From contig JAJXYT010000112.1 in the NCBI GenBank assembly GCA_021780375.1, positions 1 to 33,737 on the forward strand: a DNA stretch of 33,737 bases. The letters run 5' to 3'. The DNA comes from a bacterium (lineage in GTDB: Bacteria; Verrucomicrobiota; Verrucomicrobiia; Limisphaerales; UBA11358). A program made the position numbers and the translations under genes. Position 1 is the first letter of the stretch. The number at the start of each line of letters is the position of its first letter. Below the pieces are notes generated by a model. The model saw only the letters and a program-made list of their open reading frames with translations, did no database searches and was not told the origin of the DNA. This document shows positions 2,786-21,654 of the stretch, in pieces.

Positions 2786-5700
2786 TTAAACGTTAATGGT
2801 TTTCTGAATGGCGAGAAAATGCAGCCAGCAGTTTGTCACCGGCCGGGAATAAATTCGCGACAATGCCTGCGCGTAAAGTTTCAACTGCGGTTCATAGAGA
2901 CGCCTTCGCTCCGCCAATTCCCCGGGCTTTATTTCGTCCGTCTTGAAATCCACGAGCCAGATTTCCTTGGGCAGCAACGCGACCAAATCCGCCACACCTT
3001 GTACGACGATAAATTCGGCTCCCAGTCCCGGCGGCGTCCTGGCGCCAATGATGGCGTCCACCTCCGCCGGACTGAATTTTGCCGTGAACGGCAACTCACG
3101 TTTCAGGCAACCCGGCGATTGAGCGCGAATTTTCCGGCCCGGTTCCGATTTCCAGAACGCCGTCACGGCTTCCAAATTCAATGCCGCGTGCTCATCCGCC
3201 GTTAAAATACCGGCGGATTCCAAACGGCTGGCTTCCTCTTTGAGGGCAGCGAGGTCATCCGCCTTTTCCAGTGGAACGTGCTGGAGAAATTTGTGATGCG
3301 CCGTCCCGGTTGCCGCCGCAGTCAATTGCAGATTACCGATTGCGGATTGCGGGTTTGAGCGCGAACGCCTGGGTGGTTTCCTGGGAAACTGTTTTCCAGA
3401 ACGGGATGAAGCTTGAAACAGCAGTTCCGCTTCGTCGTCCAACTCCTCCGCCTGCCGCCGCAATGCGGTCACCGATGACTTGGCGGCGCGCCGTGTCGCC
3501 GCCGCGAACGGATATTTCCACGACAACATCGCGCGCAACCGTTCCGCTGTTGTCGTGTCAAGCCCGCCCCCGCCCTTGCAGGAGACGGCGTGAGGAGTCT
3601 CTGACTGATTTGTAATTTGAGCCTCGTCACCTCGGCTTCTGGTGATCGGGTTATCACCCATCTCCGCATTTTCCACAATCCGCCAACGCAAATGCGGCAA
3701 TTCACCTTCCGTCACGCTTTGAACTTTGAACTCCGAACTCCTAACTCCGAACCATATCCCCAACCAATCCGCATAACTTTTCGCCGAGACAATGGTCTGA
3801 GTGGTGATGGCCTCCGGTTTCGACCAAAGGGTTTCCCATTTATTCTCCGAAACGGTGGCGGTCAGAATCAGCGTGTCGCGGGCGCGGGTCATGGCCACAT
3901 ACAGCAGCCGTAATTCCTCGCCGCGTTGTTCGCGCCGCTGATGCCGTTGCGCCAGCCAGTGCGGCAGGCTCGGATAACGCCGGCCCGTGTGCGGCGGCTT
4001 GACACGCGGACACAGCCCGAATTCCTCATCGAAAATGATTTCCCCGCGCAGGTCCTGCTCATTAAACGCCTTTGCCAGATCGGCCACGACCACGACCGGA
4101 AACTCCAGGCCTTTGCTCTGGTGAATGCTCATCAGCCGGACGGCGTTCTCGTCCGCCACCGCGACAACCTCCGGCTCGGCGTCGGCGGCCTGTTGCGCCT
4201 CAACGAACTTCAAAAAACGAAACAGGCCCTGCCGCTGAAATTGATCAAACTGCTGCGCGAGCCCGAGGAACCGTTCCAGGTTCGCCTGCCGTTGTGCGCC
4301 GCGCGGACGCGAACGCAACCACTCGGCGTAATGCGTTTCCGCCAGGATGCCTTCCAGGCATTGGGATAACGACGCCTGCCTTGCCCGTTGCCGCCAGCGG
4401 GAAAATTGTTCGAGAAACTTTTCAATTTTCTGCGTCGTCTTGTCCTGGTTTCTGACCTCTGGCCTCTGACCTCTGGACAGCGCCGTCCAAAAGTGAACGT
4501 CCTTGGCGGCCAGCCGGACCGTTGCCAGTTCATCCAGTGACAAACCAACCAGCGGCGAGCGCAACACGGCAATGGCCGGCACGTCCTGCAGCGGATTATC
4601 GAGCAGCTTGAACAGACTCAGCAAATCGGCGATTTCGGTGCTGTCGTAAAAACCGCCGCGTTCGACGATCAGCGGCACGCCGGCGCGTTCGAATTCCTTC
4701 GCATACGCTTCGGCCTTCTTCGCCGGCGCGCGCAGCAGCACGGCCAGGTCACGCCATTCGGCGGTGCGTTCGGTATGGTTCTCTTCATCCCAAATTGGAT
4801 GGCCTTCCGCGACCAGCGCGCGCAGCCGGCACGCCACAAGCCGCGCTTCCTTTTCGGTTTCTTCAAGCCCGGCCAAATCATTGTCGCCGGATTCATCGTT
4901 CGTCTGGCTGTCGTCGCGGCCGCTTTTAAAGCGCAACAACAATTCCGCGCGGGGCGATGGGTCCCTGGCCAGAGCAAGCGCCAGGCGTTGTTCCGGCGCG
5001 CCGAATTGCAAGCGCGCTTCCGTGCCGCAGGTCACGCCGCCGACCTCTGCGCGCATGAGCAGTTCAAAAACCGAATTGACAAAACCGAGCAGGCTTTCGC
5101 GGCTGCGAAAGTTTTCCATGAGCGGGATTACCTGGCCGCTTTCTCCGGACCACTCGTCGGCATAACGGCGGAAAATTGTTGGGGCAGCCAGCCGGAATCG
5201 GTAAATACTCTGCTTCACGTCGCCGACGAGGAAACGATTTGCCCGGTGGGGCGAGCGTCCTCGCGAGCCGTCAGCCGATTCAACCTCAGTCGTTTTCGAT
5301 GGCTCGCCGGTAGTCTCGCCCCACCTTCCATCGCGGCTCAACGCCTGGATGATTTTGTCCTGCGCGGCGTTGATGTCCTGATATTCATCCACGAAGACGA
5401 ACCGGATTTTCTGCCGCCAACGCTCGGCAATGGCGGTCGGTTTGTGGCTGGCGGAATCCCAGAGCAGTTTCAAGGCGAATTGTTCGAGATCGTGGAAGTC
5501 CAGCACGCCATCGGCGCGCTTGCGTTCGGCGAATTTTTGTCCGAATTCCTGCGCCAGTTGCAGCAACGCGGTCATGTGGCCGCGAGTCCAATCCCAATCT
5601 TCGGCCAGCGGCTCGCGGTGGCCTGCCGCCGGCATGAGTGACTGCAGGAAAGCGGCATTGGCAAAGAATTTTTCAAGCGGTTTGCGGAGCGCTCCCTTTT

Positions 5701-6736
5701 TGCGCGGCGGATAATTTTCGTCCGCCGCCAGGACTTTTTCCAAAACCGCTGCGGCGGATTCGCGGGAAGAGCCGGGGGCGCCGGCATCTCGCCGGCGATT
5801 TGCGAATTGGCCACTCGCCGGCGAGATGCCAGCGCTCCCGGGTGTCTGGTTTTCGTCCGCGGTTTGAGAATCATCGAACTTCTCCAGACGCGACAGGAGA
5901 GCAGCCAGTTCGACGGCTTTCTCATTTGCTGCCGGAGCGTCGGTCTCCGATCCGGCGTGTTCCAAACTTTGTGCCGGGCCAGAGGCCGGCGCTCCGAGAT
6001 GCTGCAAAACCGGCAGCCATTCGTTCTGCCAGTCGCGGATGGCCTGGTTCAGCCATTTACGCCATTCAACCGGTGCTGGCGACGCGAACCGCGCGAGCTG
6101 TTCCGCAAGCCAGCAGTCGGCTTCGGGCCGCGTCCGGTCGTAATGATGCAATCGGAGCAACAGGGCGCGAATGGGCCGGTCATCGCCGTTGCCGTAAATC
6201 TGAATGAGGTTTTGCGCGGCGATGGAAAAATCCGTCTGCCCGGCGTAATGCGATTGGAACTGTTCGTCCAACATTTCCTCGGCGAGCAGGCGGGCTTCGC
6301 CGGTGTCGAGCACGGCCAGTTGCGGGTCGAGGCCGAGTTCGTAGAAATGCTCGCGCACGAGCCGCAGGCAAAAACTGTGCAGCGTGCCGATGGGCGCGGT
6401 ATCAAACAGCGCGAGTTGTTCAGCGAGATGTTGGTCGAGGGTCGAGCCGCCTTCGCTTCGCTTCGGCGCGCCGGGGGGTTGAGTGTTGAGTGTTTCTTCC
6501 AGCGCGGTGCGGAGCCGCTGCTTCATTTCCGTGGCGGCGGCTTCGGTGAAGGTGACAACCAGGATTTCGTCGAGCGATACACGCTCGCGACAAAGGCAGT
6601 CCAGGCAGCGCTGAACGAGCGTATGGGTTTTGCCCGTGCCGGCGCCGGCCATAACCAGCACGTTGCCGCGCGCGGCGACGGCCTGCCGTTGCGAAGGGGT
6701 CAGGGCGTCGGCCTTTCTGGTTGCGGGTGATTCCAT
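2786..6736 (-). CDS. addA: AddA-type UvrD/Rep helicase-nuclease with in-frame repeat insertions
   Basis: This is a superfamily 1A helicase fused to a RecB-like nuclease, the AddA subunit of AddAB/RexAB, which resects DNA double-strand ends for RecA. Visible motifs: Q motif LTPSQRQAV, Walker A AGAGTGKTHTL (about 30-40), motif II FVFVDEYQDIN (about 445), motif III VGDVKQSIYRFR (about 500), motif V VRLMSIHQSKGLEFP (about 864), motif VI LLYVAMTRARD (about 943), and nuclease residues in WLVDFKTDEI (about 1257) followed by EPQLKLYAQAL. The length of 1316 residues exceeds the usual roughly 1150-1250. The excess is largely repeat-derived insertions: palindromes at 5245, 5773, 5934 and 3587, and simple repeats at 3323, 3721, 4451 and 6434, all in frame. 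The ATG at 6736 is preferred; a GTG seven codons upstream is possible. No addB partner is present in the window. Confidence 0.88.
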   Translation of the reverse strand: MESPATRKADALTPSQRQAVAARGNVLVMAGAGTGKTHTLVQRCLDCLCRERVSLDEILVVTFTEAAATEMKQRLRTALEETLNTQPPGAPKRSEGGSTLDQHLAEQLALFDTAPIGTLHSFCLRLVREHFYELGLDPQLAVLDTGEARLLAEEMLDEQFQSHYAGQTDFSIAAQNLIQIYGNGDDRPIRALLLRLHHYDRTRPEADCWLAEQLARFASPAPVEWRKWLNQAIRDWQNEWLPVLQHLGAPASGPAQSLEHAGSETDAPAANEKAVELAALLSRLEKFDDSQTADENQTPGSAGISPASGQFANRRRDAGAPGSSRESAAAVLEKVLAADENYPPRKKGALRKPLEKFFANAAFLQSLMPAAGHREPLAEDWDWTRGHMTALLQLAQEFGQKFAERKRADGVLDFHDLEQFALKLLWDSASHKPTAIAERWRQKIRFVFVDEYQDINAAQDKIIQALSRDGRWGETTGEPSKTTEVESADGSRGRSPHRANRFLVGDVKQSIYRFRLAAPTIFRRYADEWSGESGQVIPLMENFRSRESLLGFVNSVFELLMRAEVGGVTCGTEARLQFGAPEQRLALALARDPSPRAELLLRFKSGRDDSQTNDESGDNDLAGLEETEKEARLVACRLRALVAEGHPIWDEENHTERTAEWRDLAVLLRAPAKKAEAYAKEFERAGVPLIVERGGFYDSTEIADLLSLFKLLDNPLQDVPAIAVLRSPLVGLSLDELATVRLAAKDVHFWTALSRGQRPEVRNQDKTTQKIEKFLEQFSRWRQRARQASLSQCLEGILAETHYAEWLRSRPRGAQRQANLERFLGLAQQFDQFQRQGLFRFLKFVEAQQAADAEPEVVAVADENAVRLMSIHQSKGLEFPVVVVADLAKAFNEQDLRGEIIFDEEFGLCPRVKPPHTGRRYPSLPHWLAQRHQRREQRGEELRLLYVAMTRARDTLILTATVSENKWETLWSKPEAITTQTIVSAKSYADWLGIWFGVRSSEFKVQSVTEGELPHLRWRIVENAEMGDNPITRSRGDEAQITNQSETPHAVSCKGGGGLDTTTAERLRAMLSWKYPFAAATRRAAKSSVTALRRQAEELDDEAELLFQASSRSGKQFPRKPPRRSRSNPQSAIGNLQLTAAATGTAHHKFLQHVPLEKADDLAALKEEASRLESAGILTADEHAALNLEAVTAFWKSEPGRKIRAQSPGCLKRELPFTAKFSPAEVDAIIGARTPPGLGAEFIVVQGVADLVALLPKEIWLVDFKTDEIKPGELAERRRLYEPQLKLYAQALSRIYSRPVTNCWLHFLAIQKTINV
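3323..3352. repeat. gattgc-type direct repeat inside addA
   Basis: Short repeated units (attgcagattaccgattgc, then ggattgcgg) are read in frame on the minus strand as a QSAIGNLQ-like peptide near residue 1130. A related pattern occurs at the start of the U32 gene (11471-11520). It sits in a linker before the nuclease domain. Confidence 0.6.
3587..3636. repeat. repeat family C, copy in addA
   Basis: Imperfect 12-bp arms (gtgaggagtctc at 3590-3601 and gagcctcgtcac at 3619-3630) flank a 17-bp centre. The same arrangement, with the same flanking ggcgtgagga and acctcggc, occurs at 9737-9791 in the unrelated U32 gene. In both genes it is translated on the minus strand without a frameshift. Confidence 0.75.
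3721..3753. repeat. gaactccgaactc-type repeat inside addA
   Basis: Tandem degenerate units of gaactttgaa, ctccgaactc and ctaactccga are read on the minus strand as a VRSSEFKVQS peptide. This is a linker-like insertion between the helicase and nuclease parts. Confidence 0.6.
4451..4476. repeat. two-unit 13-bp tandem repeat inside addA
   Basis: The unit tctgacctctggc occurs twice in tandem (the last base is missing in the second). It is translated on the minus strand as GQRPEVRNQ, a low-complexity insertion in the helicase 2B-like region. Confidence 0.65.
5245..5325. repeat. palindromic repeat, family D, inside addA
   Basis: Left arm 5245-5269 and right arm 5301-5325 are inverted complements with a few mismatches. 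The outer 11 bases (ggtggggcgag) match exactly, and so does the inner gcgagcc. It encodes in frame a polar peptide (about residues 471-497, including SRGRSPHRA) immediately before helicase motif III. Confidence 0.8.
5773..5840. repeat. palindromic repeat, family B, inside addA
   Basis: Arms 5773-5798 and 5815-5840 are 26 bp each with only two mismatches as inverted complements, around a 16-bp centre. Translated in frame on the minus strand, the element gives a Gly/Ala/Arg-rich peptide (about residues 299-322, including ANRRRDAGAPG). Confidence 0.85.
5934..5995. repeat. palindromic repeat, family A, copy 2 (inside addA)
   Basis: Arms 5934-5956 and 5973-5995 match the arms of the intergenic copies at 1709 and 21584. 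Inside addA the element is in frame on the minus strand and encodes about residues 248-268, ending in HAGSETDAPA. The size, 62 bp plus one flanking base, fits an insertion of 21 codons. Confidence 0.85.
6434..6496. repeat. low-complexity repeat inside addA
   Basis: The stretch combines gtcgagggtcgag, cttcgcttcgcttcgg and gttgagtgttgagtgtt units. It is read in frame on the minus strand as the peptide PPGAPKRSEGGS near residues 84-97, an unconserved loop between motif Ia and the following segment. Confidence 0.6.
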
Positions 6737-7060
6737 GCTGCGGCCGCAGGCTAACACGGAGGCGAATTTTGGAAAAGGGTCGCCCGCGAAAACTTTGTTC
6801 CCTTTCCCCGCCAGGCGGGGCGGGTCAAGGCAAGGGGATTTGAGTTAAACGCGCGCCCAACCAGGCCCTCTCCCCTGCTCTGCGGCGGAGAGGGAGACAA
6901 AAGAGCGACTCGTTCTGGGCGCGCGCGGATTCGGCCCGACGGAAATTTTAGCCGCAGATATACACGGCGTAAAGCCGCGTGGCGGCCACGCCGCTATAGC
7001 GGATGAAACACGGATTTGTCGCGACGAAGTGAAACAAAGACGGGCGCGAAGGCCGCTGAC
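6737..7060. other. intergenic region with hairpins
   Basis: There is no convincing gene between addA and the lipoprotein. The stretch holds a nested inverted repeat at 6850-6926 (outer arms cgcgcgccca/tgggcgcgcg, inner arms ccctctcc/ggagaggg) and a hairpin at 6977-6991 (gcgtggc/gccacgc, one-base loop) followed by a degenerate atgaaacacggatt stretch. These look like further dispersed palindromes. No promoter was recognised. Confidence 0.6.
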
Positions 7061-8841: not shown

Positions 8842-11544
8842 CTACCCTCCAATCTGCCCGCGCGTGACGCCGAGTTGATTGAACAATTTCAATTCGCGCC
8901 AGAGTTGGGTGCCGGTGATTTCGCCGCGCAGAAGCCGGCGGTATTGGGCAATCGTCCGCGTCACCTGTTCCGGCGTTTCGTTGAGCAATTCCACGCGGAA
9001 ATGCCGCACCCCCAGTTCAATCATCCGCGCCATGTATTCCGCGCCGGTCTGGGCCAGCGCGTTGAAGACGGTGTTACGGCAGCCGACGTCCGCCTTCACC
9101 GGATGTTCCGCGCCGACACGGTCGCGCAGCCTCACGTCGTGGTGGTCGCATGGGCGGCCACAGTTCCGGAAATCCGTGCCGTTGGACAGGAACGCACAGA
9201 ACACGCAGTGCTCCATGTGAAACATCGGCATATGCTGGTGGATGGTGACCTCGAACCATTCGGGCGGCGCGGCTGACAGCAACGCTTCCAGTTGCTGGAA
9301 ATTCAAGTCGTAACTGGCCGTCACCCGTTCCAGCCCGAACCGGTTTTTGAAATAATCCGCGGCCAGCCGGTTGGCCACGTTCAATGCGAAATCGCCGATG
9401 CACCGGTCTTGGGCAAAAAAATTCAAATGATCGTAATTGCGGACGAGGTAGCCGTCGGCGTTGCAGGAGCGCACCTGTTCCAGGGTCCATTCCTCGCCGG
9501 TTTTGAAGATGCGCGGAGGAGCCACCCAAATGGAGGGTGACGGGTGACGGGTGACGGGTGACGAGGAATTCGCGTCACCCGTCACTCGCCACGCGTCACG
9601 CGCACGCGTGACGGCTTCGCGATATTTCTTCGGATTTTCAAACTCGCAATAGACCGTCGTCACGCCGGATTGGAGCACGGCTTCGAGCTGGGGCAGATTC
9701 CGGACGAGCGCAATCAATTCTGGATTTGCGGCAGCCGGCGTGAGGAGGCTCTGACCGAATGAAGTTGAAGCATGAGCCTCGTTACCTCGGCGGCTGCCCT
9801 CATTGAGTTTCCACCGCCTTGGCTGTGCGCGTAGTTTTCCCAGTTCGGCCACAGCTTCGCGGCGCAGGCGGTTCAATTCTTTGACCGGCAAAATGACTCC
9901 ACTGCCCAGACTGTTTTTCAGCCCGCCAAGCCTGAATGGCGTGCCGCCGAGCCGGCCGAGTTGTTCGCGCAATTTGTCTTCCTGGAGCGGCTGCCTTTCG
10001 GCCTTGGCCAGCGGCAGGACGGATTCCACCTTGACGACGTTCCCAAATTCATCCCGGGCGATCAGCGTGAGCGGCGTGCCAACCGCACCATGAATTTCCA
10101 TTTCGACGGGTCGTTGGAATTTTGGCGCATCGCCTTCAAAACTTTGACGCAACCGTCGGTTCAATTCGGGGTCGTCGGTCTTCCACAATTTGTCGCCGCC
10201 GTGGACACGCGAGAAATCAATGTCGCCGCGTCCGAAGCGCAGCTCAACCTGGCAGGGCTCGTTCTCCGCCGCGAGCCGTGCGTTCGGCGCGGTGGGGACA
10301 CCGCGCCCCACCTTTTTAATTTCGTAAACCCGTCCGCCTTCTTCCTTTTCCTCCGGCTTGCCGGCGTCGAAGACCACGCCGTCGCCGGGTTTTAACGGGC
10401 CTGCCAGTTTCACCACGACGGCATCACGCAAGATCTTTGTGACTCCGCCGAGGAGCACGCCGCGCTTTTTGCCGAAGCGCGCGTGGACGAGTTGCTGGTT
10501 GTTGGTGCCGCCAAACCAGCCGGGGTAGAGGCCGCGCGAAAAGGCCATTTCCATTTCGTAATGCGGAAGGCGGAGTGCGGAAGGCGGAGCAGGCGGCGCG
10601 CATTCAGGGTTTTTCATTCCGCACTCCGCATTCCGAATCCCGCATTCATCCAGGGCTTGCCGGTAAATCCGGGTGATGTTCGCCACATATTCCGGTGATT
10701 TGAGCCGGCCCTCGATTTTCAGCGACGCGACACCGGCGCGAATCAAGTCCGGCAAAACCTCCAGTCCGGCCAGGTCCTGCGGGCTCAGCAGATATTTCCG
10801 GTCACCCAGCGGAACGGGCCGGTTGTCGGAAATCAATTCGTACGGCATCCGGCAGGCCTGGGCGCATTCACCCCGGTTGGCGGAACGGCCGCCGAGCGAT
10901 TCACTGGTCAGGCATTGTCCGGAATAAGCGACGCAAAGCGCACCGTGGACAAAAACCTCCAAGGGGAGTGACGAGTGACGGGTGACGGGTGACGGGATTG
11001 TTTCGCCGACAGCGCGAATTTTCTTAATTTCGGCAATGGAACATTCGCGTGCCAGCACGACGAGGTTACAGCCGAGTTCGCGGGCGAATTCCATCCCGGC
11101 GGCGCTGGTGATGGTCATCTGCGTCGAGGCGTGAATCGGGAAATCGGGCGAAAGCCGGCGGATGAGCCGGCAAATGCCCACATCCTGCACGATGACCGCG
11201 TCCACGCCGGCGGCAATCATGGTGCGCAGATATTTTTCGGCGTCGGCGAGTTCGTCTTCAAAAACGAGCGTGTTGAGGGTCACGTAGCCGCGCACGCCGC
11301 GGCGGTGGAGGAATTCCATCAGCCTCGGCAGATCCGCCTCGGTGAAGTTTTGCGCGCGCATCCGGGCGTTGAACTTTTCGAGGCCGAAGTAAATCGCGTC
11401 CGCGCCGTTCTCGACGGCGGCGCGGGCGCAATCCCAATCACCGGCCGGCGCGAGTAACTCGGGCAAATTACTGATTGCCGACCCCGGCTCCGCCGGGGCG
11501 GGTTGCCGATTGCCGATGGGTTCGCTTGTGGTTGTACTGGCCAT
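8842..11544 (-). CDS. U32 peptidase-family protein (RlhA/TrhP-like), repeat-expanded
   Basis: The 900-residue protein opens with the U32 core: LPELLAPAGDWDCARAAVENGADAIYFG, a TIM-barrel-like region, HASTQMTITSAAG, then FVHGALCVAYSGQC and the cysteine cluster RGECAQAC. The C-terminal part repeats a related half with the cysteines HMEHCVFC and NCGRPC. E. coli relatives (RlhA for 23S rRNA, TrhP for tRNA) hydroxylate RNA bases using prephenate and an Fe-S cluster rather than cleave peptides; a similar job is likely here. The extra length over the roughly 650-residue RlhA comes partly from the second half and partly from in-frame repeats at 9535, 9737, 10286, 10561, 10966 and 11471. It is divergent from lpxA. 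Confidence 0.85.
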   Translation of the reverse strand: MASTTTSEPIGNRQPAPAEPGSAISNLPELLAPAGDWDCARAAVENGADAIYFGLEKFNARMRAQNFTEADLPRLMEFLHRRGVRGYVTLNTLVFEDELADAEKYLRTMIAAGVDAVIVQDVGICRLIRRLSPDFPIHASTQMTITSAAGMEFARELGCNLVVLARECSIAEIKKIRAVGETIPSPVTRHSSLPLEVFVHGALCVAYSGQCLTSESLGGRSANRGECAQACRMPYELISDNRPVPLGDRKYLLSPQDLAGLEVLPDLIRAGVASLKIEGRLKSPEYVANITRIYRQALDECGIRNAECGMKNPECAPPAPPSALRLPHYEMEMAFSRGLYPGWFGGTNNQQLVHARFGKKRGVLLGGVTKILRDAVVVKLAGPLKPGDGVVFDAGKPEEKEEGGRVYEIKKVGRGVPTAPNARLAAENEPCQVELRFGRGDIDFSRVHGGDKLWKTDDPELNRRLRQSFEGDAPKFQRPVEMEIHGAVGTPLTLIARDEFGNVVKVESVLPLAKAERQPLQEDKLREQLGRLGGTPFRLGGLKNSLGSGVILPVKELNRLRREAVAELGKLRAQPRRWKLNEGSRRGNEAHASTSFGQSLLTPAAANPELIALVRNLPQLEAVLQSGVTTVYCEFENPKKYREAVTRARDAWRVTGDANSSSPVTRHPSPSIWVAPPRIFKTGEEWTLEQVRSCNADGYLVRNYDHLNFFAQDRCIGDFALNVANRLAADYFKNRFGLERVTASYDLNFQQLEALLSAAPPEWFEVTIHQHMPMFHMEHCVFCAFLSNGTDFRNCGRPCDHHDVRLRDRVGAEHPVKADVGCRNTVFNALAQTGAEYMARMIELGVRHFRVELLNETPEQVTRTIAQYRRLLRGEITGTQLWRELKLFNQLGVTRGQIGG
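9535..9612. repeat. gtgacgg tandem and inverted repeat inside the U32 gene
   Basis: Four gggtgac units are followed by inverted cgtcacc units, so the stretch is both tandem and palindromic (ggtgacg against cgtcacc). It is read in frame on the minus strand as VTGDANSSSPVTRHPS at about residues 645-670. A shorter copy occurs at 10966-10996. Confidence 0.8.
9737..9791. repeat. repeat family C, copy in the U32 gene
   Basis: Arms gtgaggaggctc (9740-9751) and gagcctcgttac (9774-9785) match those at 3590-3601 and 3619-3630 in addA, with the same outer flanks. The element encodes a Ser/Thr-rich peptide (about residues 584-602) in frame on the minus strand. Confidence 0.75.
10286..10313. repeat. short palindrome inside the U32 gene
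   Basis: gtgggg and ccccac arms (10291-10311) sit within the stretch starting ggcgcggtgggg and ending ccgcgccccacc. It reads in frame on the minus strand as GRGVPTAP, near residue 412. The motif resembles the outer arm of family D (ggtgggg) in addA. Confidence 0.55.
10561..10647. repeat. gcggaaggcggagt / cattccgcactcc repeat inside the U32 gene
   Basis: Direct gcggaaggcgga units at 10564-10590 face cattccgcactccgcattcc units at 10614-10634, giving an interrupted inverted repeat. It is translated in frame on the minus strand as a Cys/Asn-rich peptide (RNAECGMKNPECA) followed by PPAPPSALRLP, at about residues 299-327. Confidence 0.75.
10966..10996. repeat. gtgacgg tandem repeat inside the U32 gene, short copy
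   Basis: Four units of the form gagtgac or gggtgac in tandem are read on the minus strand as PSPVTRHSS near residues 183-192. The unit is the same as in the longer stretch at 9535-9612. Confidence 0.7.
11471..11520. repeat. gattgccga direct repeat with hairpin at the U32 N-terminus
   Basis: gattgccga units flank a hairpin (ccccgg ctccg ccgggg, 11482-11498). It is read on the minus strand as IGNRQPAPAEPGSAISN (residues 9-25), just before the conserved LPELLAPAG. The first 25 residues are therefore repeat-derived or non-conserved; the true start could be downstream if a non-ATG codon is used. Confidence 0.65.
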
Positions 11545-21583: not shown

Positions 21584-21654
21584 GGAGCGCCGGTCTCCGA
21601 CCCGGCGCGAAGGTGTTGATTTCCCGAACTCGCCGGGTCGGAAACCGGGGCTCC
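21584..21654. repeat. palindromic repeat, family A, copy 3 (intergenic)
   Basis: Arms 21584-21606 and 21632-21654 match the family A arms at 1709 and 5934. The copy is itself enclosed by a weaker outer inverted repeat (cctctgcaaa at 21571-21580, with tttggcagagg at 21671-21681). It forms the main content of the 330-bp gap after mlaD; no terminator with a T run was seen there. Confidence 0.8.

Follow-up and report, generated by a model that had tools for sequence, protein, structure and literature searches.

Palindromic elements of Rickettsia (RPEs) were reportedly described by Ogata et al. in 2000 and 2002, and the Wolbachia palindromic element (WPE) is said to have been described by Ogata et al. 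in 2005. RPEs are selfish palindromes kept in frame as peptide, with one such protein, Gmk, being translated and active (PMC2229807). In Wolbachia, three palindromic regions lie in frame within addA (nt 289-459, 907-1146 and 3076-3387) and usually introduce no stop codon, and in-frame WPE-like palindromic regions are also present in addB and priA (PMC4224334). Di Nocera et al. (2013) found that intragenic GTAG/CGTC REPs encode 20-30 amino acids, are often head-to-head dimers, and reside in genes for DNA repair (recBCD, UvrABC, polymerases) and translation (PMC3733652). Of the species in that survey, Opitutus terrae (Verrucomicrobia) had the largest number of GTAG cases, with uvrA and ligase among the hosts; recB of two Xanthomonas species had different REPs at about the same site, and one gene with two REP insertions is on record (PMC3733652). 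REPINs, described by Bertels and Rainey (2011), are inverted pairs of conserved REPs with a variable spacer, about 70 bp long and dispersed (PMC3116915). Given the Wolbachia, Rickettsia and 2013 precedents, the kind of event reported below is already known; the present data add how densely a single gene can be occupied and how, across a genus, the same loop is used in replicate.

The window, i.e., the whole stretch of DNA analyzed (33,737 nucleotides), belongs to a draft genome (4.0 Mb, 210 contigs, ∼85% complete) of an uncultured member of the Verrucomicrobiota. It contains an addA gene whose product (P0001) matches NCBIfam TIGR02785 (AddA) over its full length (790 bits, cut-off 707.65). UvrD helicase domains were detected in this protein, the closest solved structure is B. 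subtilis AddA (3U44/4CEJ), and the closest AddA proteins among named relatives are mostly those of uncultured Verrucomicrobia subdivision 3. The features of the gene are:

2786-6757, minus strand: addA, helicase-nuclease subunit, 1323 aa in one open frame, host of all four elements below
5934-5995, minus strand: element 3, family R3, repeat 5934-5957/5972-5995, one REP copy per strand
5772-5841, minus strand: element 2, family R2, inverted repeat 5772-5806/5807-5841, 86% complementary
5375-5389, minus strand: helicase motif II (Walker B) of addA, DEYQD
5245-5325, minus strand: element 1, family R1, inverted repeat 5245-5272/5298-5325, 79% complementary
5210-5239, minus strand: helicase motif III of addA, NRFLVGDVKQ, the next feature after element 1 in the coding direction
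3578-3642, minus strand: fourth element, degenerate, of the GTAG-type family G4, encoding about PITRSRGDEAQITNQSETPHAVSC (aa 1037-1060)

The original prediction placed three palindromes of different sequence in addA, in frame on the minus strand, at 5245-5325, 5773-5840 and 5934-5995. These positions are right within a base or two, all three lie within the single open frame, and the first, expected just before motif III, ends two codons ahead of NRFLVGDVKQ. Element 1 is an inverted pair with the layout GGTGGGGCGAG[ACT../CGT..]..GCGAGCC, one arm of which is the genome-wide R1 arm with zero mismatches; its peptide RWGETTGEPSKTTEVESADGSRGRSPH (aa 478-504) is located in the loop between motifs II and III. 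Element 2 is a near-perfect 70-bp palindrome composed of two REPs (GGAGCGCCGGCATCTCGCCGGCG) and encoding about PGSAGISPASGQFANRRRDAGAPG (aa 306-329), and element 3 is an inverted pair of GGAGCGCCGGTCTCCGACCCGGCG that encodes GAPASGPAQSLEHAGSETDAP (aa 255-275). The inserted segments include the peptide stretches RWGETTGEPSK and GSAGISPASGQFANR. Element 1 is indeed a separate family, but elements 2 and 3 are related: they share an outer GGAGCGCCGG half-arm, and the first ten bases of R2 and R3 are identical, so that the three elements represent two related families and one unrelated family (R1). Compared with dinucleotide shuffles, hairpin energies gave z values of -5.5, -10.0 and -4.2 for elements 1, 2 and 3, and for each element at most 1 of 300 shuffles reached the observed energy. 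No hairpin matched Rfam above the cut-offs; the matches obtained scored far under them and were discarded as chance. The fourth element, a degenerate inverted pair missed by the original prediction, has two half-sites in inverted order, each differing from the consensus at 7 of 24 positions. As less decayed G4 copies occupy the same AddA place in two relatives (L090 and L097), it may be an old insertion common to the genus.

The proposal that these segments are mobile repeats was borne out by many other copies in the same genome. At E ≤ 10, 94, 40 and 43 matches were obtained for elements 1, 2 and 3, respectively, which include half-elements and palindromic double counts and are therefore not copy numbers. 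A census of 770,808 bp (∼771 kb) of this genome for R1 (GGTGGGGCGAG...GCGAGCC), R2 (GGAGCGCCGGCATCTCGCCGGCG), R3 (GGAGCGCCGGTCTCCGACCCGGCG) and G4 (GTAGCAGCCGACGTGAGTCGGCTC) yielded 127 REP units in 76 clusters. All 46 two-unit clusters in this sample were head-to-head inverted pairs of 50-89 bp with a short spacer. By a conservative filter, 58 of the 76 clusters lay outside coding-like ORFs and 18 were in frame within them, an undercount of intragenic clusters since elements 2 and 3 of AddA themselves failed the flank-score filter. Two further R3 pairs are present in the window:

1709-1780, strand not given: further R3 inverted pair, between ORFs
21584-21654, strand not given: further R3 inverted pair, between ORFs

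Both the inverted-pair layout and the dispersed, chiefly extragenic copies are those of REPINs (PMC3116915). In Pseudomonas, however, REPINs are extragenic with families beside RAYT genes, whereas here approximately one quarter of the clusters lie within genes and the search for a cognate RAYT gave none. G4 begins with GTAG, R2 and R3 begin with GGAG, and R1 has no clear tag; tag variants are allowed in some families of the GTAG REP survey (PMC3733652). Many species of the genus share R1 arms of 26-28 bp without a single difference, although identity between their AddA proteins is only about 57-79%. Relative to the consensus sequences, R1 and R2 are nearly intact, R3 is partly decayed and G4 is mostly decayed, suggesting successive insertions. 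We also considered a scarcity of stop codons as the main cause of gene entry, which is at best a weak explanation (4.0 open frames of six per element versus 3.4-3.7 in flanks and random DNA).

Alignment with sister AddA proteins agreed with the expectation that the segments are inserted and not conserved. The peptides of elements 1-3 were missing, with sharp edges, from nearly all sister proteins, and clean empty sites for all three were also observed in DNA alignments. The closest relative (L091, 79% AddA identity) lacks all three elements, and the element 1 site is empty in this organism as well as in L094, L164 and L097. Target-site duplications were not seen in the DNA alignments, which were inspected by eye. 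Thus, the elements occur in frame in a conserved gene and are absent from most of its orthologs, as do protein-coding palindromic elements of the RPE/WPE type. Rickettsia elements had been named as the precedent, and the mode is the same, in-frame selfish palindromes retained as peptide (PMC2229807); however, the present elements are shorter (about 60-80 bp, against 105-146 bp for the Rickettsia RPE units), GC-rich and equipped with REP arms, and no sequence kinship is expected. Closer precedents are the repair genes of O. terrae (PMC3733652) and Wolbachia addA, which is the same gene with three in-frame palindromic regions, but in another phylum, presumably with other repeats, with longer regions (about 170-310 bp) and, as far as seen, with no analysis of site reuse (PMC4224334).

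An AlphaFold model of AddA residues 1-650 was confident (mean pLDDT 81.9), and its best matches among solved structures were AddA and RecB. Stretches with pLDDT below 50 were found at residues 262-273, 303-329, 482-487 and 489-491, coinciding with the three inserted peptides, and elsewhere only at the N-terminus and residues 616-625. The model suggests that the inserted peptides are disordered loops between folded parts of the helicase.

It is very likely that the addA segments are REPIN-type mobile palindromes which entered in frame, are kept as near-neutral disordered loops and reuse the same loops. Each segment would be a short non-autonomous palindrome of two inverted REPs (50-89 bp), most likely moved by an enzyme that recognizes the REP arms, either an HUH (RAYT-like) or another transposase. 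Insertions into addA whose net length is divisible by three, with no stop in the frame used, would add 20-30 residues as a disordered surface loop between folded helicase elements. With such a loop, the AddA product, if translated, would probably still work, and the insertion would be kept as nearly neutral. Families of differing age would then accumulate (R1 and R2 recent, R3 partly decayed, G4 old), and because few loops tolerate insertion, different families would repeatedly enter the same loop in related species.

We identified five Y1_Tnp (RAYT-type) genes in the source genome and 30 such loci in the genus, where this gene type is common. None of R1, R2 and R3 occurred near the five genes in the ∼85% complete genome or the 30 genus loci, and the RAYTs carried other terminal repeats. 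Since no RAYT gene was flanked by R1-R3, we use the term REPIN-like for layout alone. One Y1_Tnp frame of 324 aa (L123, G000:C35, about 928-1981) lies between large inverted repeats, one of which begins with GTAGCGGCGGGCATCCTGCC; it probably represents a RAYT that has a separate REPIN family, distinct from R1-R3.

Repeated use of the loop before motif III is unusually clear. From motif II to RFLVGDVK, this loop has exactly 11 residues in 70 of 101 AddA proteins of the order (14 of the 101 were unparsable), and in a wider set of 79 AddA loci, mostly from Bacillota, it has 6-13 residues in nearly all parsable members. The expanded loop of one locus in this set (L270) contains an R1 remnant, and the record is close to L111. 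R1 itself was found in three lineages with independent genomes: at the same codon position in the source genome and L092, and as a shortened remnant in L111. Relatives contained at least three further repeat families in this loop. The L090 element reads SPSPRPSGERAGVRG and is matched 35 times in the genome that carries it (G001); the L093 element reads SHGQDARAT and recurs both in the genome it comes from and elsewhere, with matches in G021 and G026; and the L109 element reads GVPPLGG..PPEGGTPN, matching 41 times in G010 and 16 times in G000, the L109 genome being outside that set. Further hairpins or loops before motif III were observed in L095, L167 and L230. On a tree of 37 AddA proteins, parsimony gave eight state changes at this loop, a count that is no proof of eight insertions since the inner parts of R1 are alike in the source genome and L092, where R1 could go back to a single old insertion that was lost later in other lineages. 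At the R3 site (aa 255), L092, L109 and L164 have R3 too, as one common insertion, with two changes on the AddA tree. Together with the several palindrome families, the eight changes support the lasting tolerance of AddA loops that had been proposed. Short REPs, products of 20-30 aa and repair and translation genes as hosts are shared with the 2013 survey (PMC3733652); what goes beyond it is a single addA with three palindromes plus one decayed, drawn from two to four families, and a close-relative tree with empty sites on which one loop changes state eight times.

Sharing of one host gene by several families, another part of the original prediction, held in the form of two related families and one unrelated, but other genes carry such elements too, and we dropped the idea that AddA is a uniquely favored host. 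In-frame clusters of the same-genome sample (L124-L163) were also located in genes for ProRS, HflX, GatB, UvrB, Mfd, HrpB, a Xer-type recombinase, PheT, KsgA and DnaX, and the window contains an additional carrier:

8842-11544, minus strand: U32-family gene (peptidase U32 + DUF3656), 900 aa

Inverted repeats occur at three positions in this gene, a G4 pair at 9728-9797 and two others at 9537-9599 and 10561-10638, all within linkers that vary among sisters and that hold other repeats in those sisters. With AddA left out, 10 of 16 carriers were information-processing genes, compared to 4 of 27 random length-weighted genes with carriers removed (Fisher p = 0.002; a small sample with classes set by hand from Pfam names). 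Such a bias might indicate adaptive insertions: the activity or expression of AddA would be tuned by the added loops or by mRNA hairpins, which would account for the enrichment of repair genes among the carriers. The position of element 1 next to motif III fits this idea, as does the same gene bias in the 2013 survey, where mutator effects were proposed (PMC3733652). However, the site conserves neither sequence, length nor family, most sisters have no insertion, and the loops are predicted to be disordered. Survivorship may also explain the bias, as an insertion into a conserved gene would persist and remain recognizable only if it is in frame. We consider an adaptive role improbable. A distinctly improbable extension is that the motif II-III loop of AddA/RecB-type helicases is a cross-phylum landing site at which insertions may affect palindrome handling, the elements domesticating the enzyme that limits them; such feedback is conceivable because AddAB itself processes broken DNA.

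Decay of addA in this lineage, with insertions tolerated because the gene no longer matters, is very unlikely. Four insertions within one gene would be compatible with it, and some Wolbachia strains combine palindromic regions in addA with truncation (PMC4224334). In contrast, the 1323-aa frame is fully open, the invariant helicase and nuclease residues are all retained, the TIGR02785 match is full-length and over the cut-off, and sister proteins with insertions keep full frames as well. Misjoining of repeats into addA is extremely unlikely: repeats are typical error sites in draft assemblies of this kind (210 contigs, ∼85% complete), but the frame is preserved at three insertion places, the R1 position recurs in independent genomes (L092, and the L111 remnant), and the R3 insertion is common to the related L092, L109 and L164. 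Finally, that these are ordinary variable loops forming hairpins by chance, without mobile DNA, is hardly credible and is refuted by the dispersed copies: all three segments do lie in regions variable among other AddA proteins, but near-identical arms are scattered over dozens of unrelated sites of the genome and also occur across the genus, the empty sites are sharply bounded, and hairpin z values reach -10.

Empty sites, dispersed copies and the tree show that different mobile palindromes have repeatedly filled a single loop in a core repair enzyme. The AddA proteins of this genus thereby offer natural replicate insertion experiments on the origin of protein segments from selfish DNA and on the tolerant loops of AddA/RecB-type helicases. 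In addition, the excess of palindromes in repair and translation genes recurs in another bacterial group, where it can be tested against survivorship.

Other types of sequence were also observed in AddA loops. In addA of the window, loops variable among sisters hold short repeat-like peptides at 6434-6472, 4433-4474, 3716-3748 and 3326-3358 (minus strand), namely GAPKRSEGGSTLD, RGQRPEVRNQDKTT, GVRSSEFKVQS and SNPQSAIGNLQ, which resemble remnants of non-palindromic repeats of other kinds. In the loop before motif III of L230 (AddA of G197), the DNA of a serine run pairs with that of an acidic run (SSSS... / EDEDENEDEE), forming a hairpin of -70 kcal/mol that looks like a folded-back simple repeat, not a REP. 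Another AddA loop, near reference aa 91, contains an 85-residue insertion in L222 (AddA of G087) with a hairpin of -174 kcal/mol, which looks like a PHPGPLPLGGGEG/GEGRGEGE repeat type.
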